Of a DNA stretch of 64,000 nt, positions 1,543 to 56,063 are shown one piece after another. This DNA is from Natranaeroarchaeum aerophilus (GTDB taxonomy: Archaea; Halobacteriota; Halobacteria; Halobacteriales; Natronoarchaeaceae). The notes beneath the pieces were generated by a model. It was not told the DNA's origin. It ran no database searches and saw nothing but the letters and a program-made list of their open reading frames with translations. The stretch is taken from positions 186,001-250,000 of the forward strand of contig NZ_JAKRVY010000003.1 of assembly GCF_023638055.1 (NCBI RefSeq), written 5' to 3'. Both the position numbers and the translations under genes were made by a program. Within the stretch, counting starts at the first letter, position 1. Every line of letters begins with the position of its first letter.

Positions 1543-4500
1543 ATGAAATCGCGGGTCTTCATGTCTCTCGGTCTGGTGTTCCTTCTCGTCGCGGGTGTCG
1601 TACTGTTCGGACCGACGTTTGGGTTTTCATCGTTTGCCGCAGACCGTGGCGTCTCCGGGGACATCGCCGACGACCAGTCGGAGGCCCTTCTCGGGCTTGA
1701 GACGATCGACGAGTCGATAGACGGGCGGCAGGATGACGCAACAGTCGCTCGGATCACGAACAATTTCGGACAGGAGATCACCGACCTACAGACGACTATT
1801 AGTTTTGCTTCTGGGGACGGTGACGTACGGATCAGTGACGGATTCGACGATCAGCTACAGGCGGCGGAGTCGACTGAACTGGTAATGGAGTGTGACGGTG
1901 GAGGCGGTGAGGGAACGGCGGAACTCACTATCAGTGTCGATCAAGCGGTCAGTGCGGGTATCTCCGTACAGGATGCTTCGTTTACGACGCAGTTCTCGTA
2001 CACGTGTACGGGAGGTGGTGGCGGTGGCGGTCCGCTCCCGCCAGGAGATCCACTCGTCTGGGAAACACAGGCTGACTGGGCAGACGCCGACGAGCAGGAT
2101 GGTGTTGTCCACGAGACGTTCGGCGACCGACAGGACGACGCGATCCAGCTGGGCTACGAGGGAACGGACGACGGGCTTGTGGGATACTGGCCACTGGACG
2201 AGGAGACCGGGACCGTGGCCGAGGATGTCTCTGGGGCCGGTAACGACGGCGATCACGTTGACAGTCCCGTGATCGGCGCTGACGGGCTGCTCGAAACGAC
2301 GAGCTACCAGTTCGACGGGGAGAGTAGTCACGTGGAAGTGCCCCACGACGAGAGCCTGGAGATGAGCGACGGCGACGCCGTGACGGTATCCACGTGGGTG
2401 AATCAGGCGAGCGATCAGAGCGACGAGAACTGGGTCGCGCTCGTTCAGAAGTCCGACACATCGTACAACCTGCAGTTGGCCAACGGCAACGAGCCAACGT
2501 TCACGATCCACGACGGTGACTGGAACGAGGCGAACAGCGGCATCGAGGTAGAGACGGATCGATGGTACCACCTCACTGGCGTCTACGACGGGGATGAGGC
2601 ACGAATCTACGTTGACGGCGAACTGGAAGGAGCTACGACGGTCGATGGCGATATGACCGACGCAAGTGAGTTCGATGTTGGAATCGGTGAGAACCTCGAC
2701 GATTCGGACCGACATCTCGACGGGCGGATGGACGAGGTGCGGTTGTACGACCGGGCACTCACCGAAACCAAGGTAACTGCGCTCGAAGACATTAGTACCG
2801 GAAGCTACACGAGTGGCCAGAGAACTGCTGCGGACCCGATAGACCTCGAAACGCTTGAATTGACGGGTGTCGACGTACTGACCAACAGTGGTGACGCCTC
2901 AGTACGGATCGAAGCATTCTACGACGATGGGTCGACGGCGATCAGCGATCCGATCGAGCTAGATGCTGGCATCGAGACCTATAACGTCGAAGGACTCGTG
3001 GGCGAGGCCGACAGCTTCCGTCTGGTGGTCGAGATGGAGACGCCGGATGTCGAGCGTTCGCCGGTACTGTCCAGAGTCGAACTGGCTGGCGATTCCGCGA
3101 CGGACGAGATCGATCCCGTACGGGTGAACTTCCAGCCACCTGATGGTGAGTTCGACGGCGAGACTCCTGAGGGCTACCTCGCAGATGTCGGCGAGGCATT
3201 TGGCGAACACGATGCGGACGTGGACTACGGGTGGATCGACGGCCCGGTCGAGGAATACCGCGAGCGAAACAGTGTCGAGAACGTCAGATACGACACGCTC
3301 GCACATATGAACTGGGACACTGCCGAGGAGGAATCCTGGGCAGTGGCTGTACCCGATGGATCGTACGACGTGACGCTCGTGATGGGCGATCCGGACCACA
3401 CGGACTCCGATCACACGGTTGCAGTCGAGGACACCACCTTCGTCGATGAGGAGGGCGAAGGCGGTTCGAATTTCGTCACCCATCAGGGGACCGTCGAGGT
3501 GACCGGCGGACAGCTCCGGATCGACTCGGCAGACCTCGGCTCCAATCAGAAGCTCGCGTTCGTTGAGGTTACGCCCGCAGCCGATCCCGGATTGATCGAC
3601 GACTTCGAGTACCCCCCAAGCGTCCTCGATGACCAGTACCGCGTCAACTACGACGGCTCGCCGACTGACTCCCACTCGACCGCGGACGATCAGTTGGTTC
3701 TCGGGGACAGTTCCCGGCTCTACTCGTCACCCGGGCTCGGTGGTCCGGAGCCGTATGCCGAGCGGGATCTGAACTACTACCCAGATCCGGGCGATACGAT
3801 CACCGCTACGACTACGCTCGGACAAGAAGATGTCGTCACGACGTTCGGCTTCGGCGTCGACCGGGACGATCCGATCCGCGGCTACACGGTCAAACTCGAT
3901 CCGACGAGCGAGGAACCTGATAACGACGCAACGGTCCAGTTGTACAGCGAGGACGGCGACTTCGAGAACTACCCGAACCTCGATGACAGGGATATCGATC
4001 TCGACGCCGATACGGAGTACGAGATCATGGTCGACTGGGGTGCAAACACCATTGAGCTTCGACTGTTCGAGGTCGACGGTGCAGAACTCACCGACGAGCC
4101 GCTTCGGATCGACACCGTCGACGAGTTCGACGACTACCGGGGAGTCGCGTTCCAGAACCGGTACCTCGGTGATCCAGCGGACGGTAAAACGGTCTGGGGT
4201 GAGGCCAGTTCCGATATTGGTGAGGGGACGGAACCGAATCCTGCGGAGTTCGCCATTATTGCTGTCGAGCCCGACAGCGGGATGACTGGTGAGACGATTA
4301 CCTCGACGGTCACAGTCGAAAACATCGGTGATCTCGGCGATACACAGACGATCGGGTACGAACTGGAGGCGTACTCTGTCGCAGTCGTCGACGAGGAACT
4401 GGTCCACGGTGAAGATATCGCCGAAACGTTGGACGGCGAACTGCCAGGCGAGTACGACGTCGAGACGATGCGCACCGAGGACATCCTGGGGCAGGTTGAC

Positions 4501-15906: not shown

Positions 15907-16026
15907 TGCGAGGGCTGGGATTCGAACACGTCGAGACGGTCGCTCACATTCGTTCGCGCTGCGACTCGTCTGCTCGAATCCCATTGGTAGATTTTCACGG
16001 CTCTCCCGTACGGTCGAGCCGGAAAA
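15907..16026 (-). repeat. tRNA-Leu 3'-end duplication with T-arm palindrome
   Basis: Bases 15907-15927 are identical to 16027-16047, the 3' end and T-arm of the tRNA-Leu gene, at a distance of 120 bp. Within the spacer, TCGAATCCCA (15974-15983) is the exact reverse complement of TGGGATTCGA (15916-15925), so the spacer can form a hairpin whose stem is tRNA T-arm sequence. The inner part adds AGACG/CGTCT and a GCGAACGAATGTGAGCG-like core on the minus strand. Such duplications mark attachment sites of integrated elements; the palindrome is not explained by integration alone. Confidence 0.75.
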
Positions 16027-16111
16027 TGCGAGGGCTGGGATTCGAACCCAGGAACTCCTACGAGAGCGGGTCTTAAGCCCGCCGCCTTTGGCCTGGCTCA
16101 GCCACCCTCGC
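16027..16111 (-). tRNA. tRNA-Leu (anticodon TAA)
   Basis: An 85-nt tRNA with a long variable arm. The acceptor stem GCGAGGG pairs with CCCTCGC, followed by discriminator A at 16027. The anticodon loop CTTAAGA gives TAA, decoding UUA. The T-arm has the canonical GGTTCGAATCC core. The extra arm (CTCGTAGGAG region) identifies it as a class II leucine tRNA. CCA is not encoded. No intron is visible. Confidence 0.95.
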
Positions 16112-47692: not shown

Positions 47693-47766
47693 GGGCCGGT
47701 AGCTCAGTTAGGGAGAGCGTCTGGCTTTTAACCAGACGGTCGAGGGTTCAACTCCCTCCCGGCCCG
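47693..47766 (+). tRNA. tRNA-Lys (anticodon TTT)
   Basis: A 74-nt tRNA. The acceptor GGGCCGG pairs with CCGGCCC, with discriminator G at 47766. The anticodon stem CTGGC... encloses TTT (loop CTTTTAA), decoding AAA. The T-arm GAGGGTTCAACTCCCTC is standard. An AT-rich TTTAATT box about 30 bp upstream fits a promoter. CCA is not encoded. Confidence 0.95.
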
Positions 47767-47888
47767 CTTCTGCGAGGAACGAACGTGACGAGCGAAGCGG
47801 ATACTGAGGGAGTTGAATCCGGGGAGTCGCGCACAGCGAACGAAGTGAGCGAGCACGTCTCCACTCGGTTCAACTCCCTCCCGGCCCG
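47767..47888 (+). repeat. tRNA-Lys 3'-end duplication with T-arm palindrome
   Basis: Bases 47867-47888 are identical to 47745-47766, the last 22 bases of tRNA-Lys, at a distance of 122 bp. The spacer contains GAGGGAGTTGAA (47806-47817), the exact reverse complement of TTCAACTCCCTC (47869-47880), so it forms a 12-bp (extendable to 14 with a G-U) stem made of T-arm sequence. The core includes GCGAACGAAGTGAGC and GCGAGCACGTCT (47849-47860), the latter shared with the tRNA-Arg module. Same overall plan as at tRNA-Leu and tRNA-Arg. Confidence 0.75.
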
Positions 47889-55577: not shown

Positions 55578-55650
55578 GTCCGGGTAGGGTAGTGGACTAT
55601 CCTCTTGGCTTGCGGAGCCAGGGACCGGAGTTCAAATCTCCGTCCGGACG
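55578..55650 (+). tRNA. tRNA-Arg (anticodon GCG)
   Basis: A 73-nt tRNA. The acceptor GTCCGGG pairs with TCCGGAC (one G-U), discriminator G at 55650. The anticodon stem TTGGC/GCCAG encloses loop TTGCGGA, giving GCG for CGC/CGU codons. T-arm CGGAGTTCAAATCTCCG is canonical. Downstream lies an unusual array of repeats of its own 3' half. Confidence 0.93.
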
Positions 55651-56063
55651 CTCACTGCGTTCGCGACCGGACGTGCCTTACGCTCGCTTTGCTCGCGTAA
55701 GACTCCGTCCGGACGCTACATTTTGCGCGAACAACACGGCGAGCGACCTCTGTGTCGCTCGCCTCGTGAGCGCTTATGCGTCTGACACGGAGATTTGATC
55801 AGATCAGACGCGCGCAGCAACGCGAGCACGTCTGAGCGAGTTCAAATCTCCGGGCGACCGCAGGTCGCCCGTGCCTCACGCTACGCTCGCGTGAGACGCC
55901 ATCTGATCGACGATCAGATGTGCCCCGGAGTCGAAGACTCCGGGACTCCGTCCGAACGCTACAGTTTGCGCGAACAACATGGCGAGCGACTGCCGTGTCG
56001 CTCGCAAGCTACTGCCTCCTGAAAATCGAGTGAAAAGCCGGCAGCGCCAGCGGGACCGTGTCG
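55651..56063 (+). repeat. tRNA-Arg 3'-end copies, duplicated 60-bp unit and hairpin array
   Basis: A 413-bp gap without a gene. It contains a 15-bp copy of the tRNA 3' end (CTCCGTCCGGACGCT at 55703-55717), a copy of the T-arm (GAGTTCAAATCTCCG at 55838-55852) and a near copy at 55946-55960. A 60-bp unit, 55703-55762, recurs at 55946-56005 with few changes, each ending in a 9-bp stem GCGAGCGAC/GTCGCTCGC with different loops. Further perfect hairpins: GGGCGACC/GGTCGCCC, CTCACGC/GCGTGAG, CATCTGATCG/CGATCAGATG and CCCGGAGTC/GACTCCGGG. CGGAGATTTGA (55788-55798) mirrors TCAAATCTCCG (55842-55852). Confidence 0.75.

Follow-up and report, generated by a model that had tools for sequence, protein, structure and literature searches.

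Nearly half of the tRNA genes in the genome that contains the window (the whole 64-kb stretch of DNA analysed here) are followed by units that apparently constitute a family of very small mobile elements not described before, gene-less and integron-like in organization. tRNA genes are classic landing sites of mobile DNA, and an order-wide family of gene-less cassettes lodged at them seems to lack a prior description; the units would rank among the smallest known mobile elements. Each is laid out in the order T3' (tRNA positions 53-73), a first hairpin region (HP1), an inverted T-loop (invT) and a core hairpin (HP2), and is closed by another copy of positions 53-73, giving a length of about 90-140 bp with medians of 52 nt for HP1 and 38 nt for HP2. 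A prior sequence-only reading of the window had pointed out that the 22-nt end of tRNA-Lys recurs downstream with its inverse in between, and that the same palindromic plan is found at tRNA-Leu and tRNA-Arg; all three cases were borne out (Table 1), the T copy of the Arg unit being split by a further insertion. The plan is not present at the tRNA-Met and tRNA-Asn genes of the window.

Table 1. Coordinates of the tRNA genes and unit parts at the three loci of the 64-kb window.
Feature	Position	Strand	Basis
tRNA-Lys(ttt), host gene; T-loop is the proposed insertion site	47693..47767	+	ARAGORN; Rfam RF00005
T3' (tRNA positions 53-73), left part of the cassette; also serves as the functional tRNA's 3' end	47746..47766	+	boundaries from 183 loci
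HP1 hairpin region, ggaacgaacgtgacgag type, Lys unit	47767..47805	+	
Inverted T-loop/T-stem strand GAGGGAGTTGAA, Lys unit	47806..47817	+	
HP2 core hairpin GGAGTCGCGCACAGCGAACGAAGTGAGCGAGCACGTCTCC, Lys unit	47818..47866	+	covariance model (CM) R1 hit 47807-47879, 58.7 bits
Displaced direct copy of the tRNA-Lys 3' end, 22 nt	47867..47888	+	
tRNA-Leu(taa), host gene	16027..16111	-	ARAGORN
Inverted T-loop, Leu unit	15974..15983	-	CM hit 15916-15983, 44.0 bits
HP2, Leu unit	15928..15973	-	
Displaced copy of the tRNA-Leu 3' end	15907..15927	-	
tRNA-Arg(gcg), host gene	55578..55651	+	ARAGORN
Acceptor-part-only copy CTCCGTCCGGACGC, second, nested insertion type, Arg locus	55703..55716	+	
Inverted T-loop/T-stem, Arg unit	55787..55798	+	CM hit 55789-55851, 50.3 bits
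HP2, Arg unit	55799..55837	+	
T copy, Arg unit, ending after the T-stem, cut by nested insertion	55838..55852	+	

The second hairpin-bearing insertion type interrupts displaced T copies within their T-stem (e.g., GCAAACAAACCGCGTTTGCTCAC and then TCCC..), and such splits were seen at 55703-55954 of the window, at locus L189 and, in genome G000, at tRNA-Ser(tga), Gly(tcc), Ala(ggc) and Arg(tct).

We surveyed all readable tRNAs of the window's genome (3.29 Mb in 32 contigs) and found complete T/inverse/T units behind 19 of 42 tRNA genes, with 26 units in all and at least two at six genes; a 300-bp control stretch upstream of each of these 42 genes held no complete unit. Of 393 genomes searched in the phylum, 46 matched the exact pattern GGATTTGAACN{20,50}GTTCAAATCC, every one of them in the window's order, and the reversed pattern gave zero matches in the same 393. 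With a covariance model, 23 of the order's 24 members gave 1-32 hits each, the exception being G145, and the 124 genomes from elsewhere in the phylum gave none. Hits in GTDB contigs were mostly haloarchaeal, and nearly all of these lay 20-260 bp 3' of a tRNA and in its orientation; the few bacterial hits did not share the plan. The module had been suspected to be recurrent, and the search of the genome and its relatives showed an occurrence near tRNAs that is order-wide and far broader than first noted. In the phylum Woesearchaeota, the exact pattern was found in 2 of 237 genomes and the covariance model had hits in 1 of 194. Two Woesearchaeota show the unit plan at several tRNAs, and one has an HP2, TAGACCAGCCTCAGCTGGGCGTT, that is close to the haloarchaeal TAGAC..GGCGTT type. 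In two Woesearchaeota genomes (L327, L334, L344, L347, L355, L356), a variant direct copy begins inside the T-loop (AATCC..) and not at position 53.

Across 183 loci, the direct copy corresponds to tRNA positions 53-73 with sharp edges, identity being 0.98 at position 53 versus 0.38 at 51, and 0.87 at 73 versus 0.51 at 74. The specificity of the inverse was assessed with 164 haloarchaeal tRNAs, for which the presence of a direct copy was the sole selection criterion. The stretch from tRNA to copy matched the inverse of the tRNA's own 12-nt T core at a mean of 10.04 of 12 positions, as against 8.92 for the cores of other tRNAs, 7.10 for shuffles and 7.11 for the 5' flank; with tRNA identities permuted 500 times, the score was 1514.6 +- 9.5 (maximum 1550), compared with 1647 observed (z ~14). 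The match is not a matter of chance, which the sequence-only reading had named as one outcome that would undo it. Examined position by position, invT is strong only at tRNA positions 54-62, mostly the universal T-loop, and fades at 63-65; it is specific to its tRNA at position 57 (0.97 versus 0.80 for other tRNAs), at 59 and partly at 63-65. The universal T-loop accounts for most of the inverse "copy", and genuine tracking is seen at the positions where tRNAs differ. The initial description of a 12-14 bp copy of the host tRNA was thus right as to the tracking but overstated the typical case, and rather than copying its host tRNA, the unit is better seen as a cassette whose own tRNA 3' end and inverted T-loop have to correspond. 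An inverse of the whole 22-nt end was rejected, the ungapped test having no signal past position 65; a weak signal appears in gapped alignment only, where detection is biased. The peak of invT identity covers the 7-nt T-loop plus 2, a profile that would be expected of a recombinase overlap region.

Of the outer stem, 98.6% is paired in the genome that holds the window, and double-change cells number 14, whereas shuffles give 2.8 +- 1.4. On the tRNA-sense strand, a tandem GA/GA interrupts the stem in 108 of 159 HP1 hairpins (68%) and 102 of 159 HP2 hairpins (64%), while shuffling gives about 10 (6%) and about 7 (4%), respectively; because the opposite strand would read TC/TC, this points to the tRNA-sense strand as the folding one. 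As a single strand, the unit would be predicted to form a dumbbell, with T3' and invT paired in the stem and HP1 and HP2 as caps. Close matches between loci involve different tRNAs, including those of different genomes, in 34 of 56 cases for HP2 and in 0 of 13 for HP1, and from this pattern HP2 appears to behave like a recognition site and HP1 like a body particular to each cassette. Where positions differ, invT sides with the preceding T in 20 cases and with the following T in 4, a comparison confounded by the decay of the following copy. No coding cargo lies between tRNA and module within about 8 kb, no intermediate sizes occur, and there is no recombinase gene inside any unit.

The mobility of the units is well supported by genome comparisons. 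G019 and G044, which belong to one genus, show whole-unit differences at about 16 of 41 tRNAs, and the strain comparison proposed at the outset for locating the boundaries returned exact single-unit differences and a clean empty site. At this site, tRNA-Glu(ctc), G044 reads ..gtcggagca directly followed by TGCGAGACACG, and G019 has one 102-bp unit, a tRNA-end copy and then the same TGCGAGACACG; tRNA-Lys provides a second filled/empty pair (L189/L193). Loss of units could alternatively come about by homologous deletion between the 20-bp repeats. Within arrays, the first copy retains 19.3 of 20 positions and the last 17.8 of 20 (29 versus 7 arrays, p = 3e-4), a gradient that entry of new units at the tRNA, together with decay of the older ends, would produce. 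Some cassettes carry the end of a foreign tRNA: an 89-bp unit in the Leu(taa) array of G044 has a Leu(tag)-like end, with 4 mismatches to its own tRNA and 1 to Leu-tag, and one unit in the Thr(ggt) array of L211 has an exact tRNA-Asp end (20/20). Both adjoin a displaced copy and neither is at the tRNA itself, where a foreign end would damage that tRNA. These two clear examples, on which the case rests, indicate that T3' travels with the cassette, and they rule out that T3' is a duplication of the target site generated by the host tRNA.

Taken together, we consider it probable that the units are non-autonomous mobile cassettes, inserted site-specifically at T-loops by a recombinase that acts in trans on an attC-like hairpin, a reading that builds on their anatomy, the exact indels of units, the empty site, the arrays, the foreign-tRNA cassettes and the base-pair covariation. 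Of the explanations originally offered, a minimal mobile element is the likely one given the gain and loss, empty site, arrays and cross-tRNA cassettes, whereas a one-off fold-back product is at odds with the uniform unit ends, the recurrence of HP2 types across tRNAs and genera, and the foreign tRNA ends. Integrases use three regions of tRNA genes, of which the T-loop is one (PMC8371274). Site-specific recombination at T-loops fits the borders at 53/54, the arrays and the need for invT to match within the 7-nt T-loop. The cut position, the single-strand folding and the enzyme are the parts of the cassette model that we infer. A cassette would enter the tRNA T-loop at its 5' edge (G53/T54), where its own T3' would rebuild the tRNA 3' end and the old 3' end would be displaced downstream; repeated insertion would then yield tandem arrays in which the oldest copies decay. 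Since a double-stranded circle of 90-140 bp is stiff, a single-stranded intermediate must be assumed: invT and the T copy would pair across HP2, such that one strand, putatively the tRNA-sense strand, furnishes a duplex equal to the T-loop site of the tRNA for a recombinase provided in trans, probably of the tyrosine family. In integron attC and in CTX phage attP, it is likewise a hairpin folded from one strand that presents the recombination duplex. Under the cassette model, cassette-type recombination can arise outside integrons, and cassettes would account for many partial tRNA ends in haloarchaeal genomes; annotators should bear in mind that a repeat of a tRNA 3' end is not necessarily a provirus. 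Haloferax volcanii would offer a directly testable system for these cassettes.

More tentatively, we entertain as a possibility an integron-like system without IntI, in which gene-less cassettes of ~100 nt enter tRNA T-loops as folded single strands in Halobacteria and some Woesearchaeota, driven by a XerA-like recombinase of the host. Tyrosine recombinases are present in all 6 haloarchaeal genomes checked and in both Woesearchaeota, whereas Y1_Tnp (PF01797) is absent from the module-bearing G001, G043, G424 and G425 (two of these four being metagenome-assembled), which favours a tyrosine recombinase acting in trans; a Y1 transposase as the driver was rejected for its absence from several module carriers. 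No clear common enzyme emerged when recombinases were compared across carriers. The candidate, P0001, is a single-copy XerA-like protein of 349 aa (G000:C4:224061-225107) found in all 26 order members tested and in none of 132 others (1e-20). Its scores are 105.9 bits on the archaeal XerA model, below the cut-off of 220, and 19.4 bits on the integron-integrase model TIGR02249, for which the cut-off is 265; it is closer to archaeal XerA. This TIGR02249 scan covered P0001 among the tyrosine recombinases and identified no integron integrase. An archaeal XerA has been reported to bind stem-loop att structures (PMC8371274). G145, of the same order, constitutes a natural negative, with the XerA-like gene present and no module by the covariance model. 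P0001 therefore stays a candidate for the driving recombinase, also because any order-specific core gene would show such a correlation.

Integron gene cassettes and CALINs (attC clusters without integrase) have been reported in archaea too (PMC9668308). The tRNA units resemble them in forming tandem one-way arrays at a fixed site with gain and loss of single cassettes, and in consisting of an entry-site end, a body and a hairpin site that has AAC..GTT boxes and varies at its tip; they differ in having no gene cargo and in entering at a tRNA T-loop. The attC boxes read RYYYAAC / GTTRRRY, whereas the units have AAC/GTT within a box that reads GTTCRAAY (GTTCRAAT), and membership among the integrons fails on both box sequence and cargo. 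CTX phage and IMEX have a hairpin site formed from one strand and use a host-encoded recombinase and the dif site; the hairpin site and the host-encoded recombinase are what we propose for the units too, but these use a tRNA instead of dif and are without phage genes. Larger tRNA-integrating elements that cross over in the T-loop (PMC8371274) likewise repeat the tRNA 3' end while keeping the gene whole and accumulate in tandem, and the filled and empty sites of the units have exact borders as those of such elements do; the units are distinguished from them by a size of ~100 bp, the lack of an integrase gene, and the inverted T-loop and two fixed hairpins in each. In the open-licence literature we found no prior description of these units, the nearest being SMR-A of Haloquadratum (HqIRS42/43/55), gene-free elements of about 110 bp with inverted repeats that insert at palindromes and whose mobilisation is enigmatic (PMC3119063). 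Judged by that description, they are alike in size, inverted repeats and absence of a gene, and set apart in that SMRs target IS605/PATE palindromes and have no flanking repeats (PMC3119063).

Single-strand transposition by an HUH/Y1 enzyme of the IS200/IS605 kind is, in our view, unlikely, though it is the least improbable of the alternatives. HP1 and HP2 would be the two subterminal hairpins, and invT, lying 5' of the HP2 foot and pairing with the T site 3' of HP2, would act as a right-end guide to the T-loop cleavage site; on one strand both hairpins share the tandem-GA motif, subterminal hairpins with stem mismatches and a possible pairing guide are also features of IS200/IS605, PATE and REP-type elements, and haloarchaea commonly carry IS605-type elements and palindrome-carrying PATEs (PMC3119063). 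However, this would have to be reconciled with the carriers without Y1_Tnp, the lack of a matching guide 5' of HP1, a pairing of 9-14 nt rather than 4-6, and the direct repeat of 20-21 bp that flanks each unit, in which the units differ from IS200/IS605 and PATE.

We give little credence to a host structural element, namely a hairpin retained downstream of tRNA genes to serve transcription termination, 3' processing or the control of replication, whose stem would track the tRNA by compensatory change. Such an element would have a conserved fold with covariation and an order-wide occurrence, as the units do, but more than half of the tRNAs have no unit, units are present or absent between close relatives, some carry foreign tRNA ends, distal copies decay and no Rfam family corresponds to the unit. 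The related suggestion of a maintained structured RNA is not supported either, in view of the strong presence/absence variation, the decay of displaced copies and the Rfam search, which returned only tRNA at gathering score and no other family above the cut-off.

Comparably improbable is the view that the units were left behind by ordinary large viruses or plasmids that integrate at tRNA genes and had the hairpin in their attP. Repeats of tRNA 3' ends are the usual mark of such elements (PMC8371274), but the units are uniform in length, cargo and intermediate sizes are missing over the distance given above, and scans of viral contigs with three patterns recovered no haloarchaeal module, giving bacterial palindromes or chance matches only, on which ground a viral origin was rejected; BLAST in phages and plasmids returned mainly tRNA matches. 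Moreover, a provirus-sized insertion in G000 parts tRNA-Val(gac) from a pre-existing module by way of a different 13-nt site. This apparent insertion of ~17 kb, which has a 342-aa tyrosine recombinase and the 13-nt site TGCCCAAACCCAC, separates tRNA-Val(gac) at C1:496380-496454 from the older module at about 479147-479212 on the minus strand (L400, G000:C1:472000-491000), and it explains the seeming lack of a module at that tRNA. The poorest prospect is that DNA-polymerase template switching or quasipalindrome correction makes the inverse copy and tandem slippage multiplies it: invT does follow its own tRNA at variable positions, and template switching may fine-tune it, but the locus is not the source of HP1 and HP2, similar types of HP2 turn up at different tRNAs of different genomes, and foreign cassettes exist.

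Several further arrangements came to light in the searches. In Nitrosocosmicus (L086, L168), an inverted T-arm lies directly 5' of partial tRNAs that extend from the anticodon region to the 3' end. Long perfect palindromes with arms GGATTTGAACC(A/G)TG..CTCTGG were found in viral contigs and two Bifidobacterium genomes (L049, L051-L055, L075, L076), and these arms resemble inverted tRNA pieces. Finally, locus L122 of Haloferax larsenii has identical modules at 44-88 and 3650-3694, 3.6 kb apart and flanking a 578-aa ORF, with a partial tRNA just before the second module.
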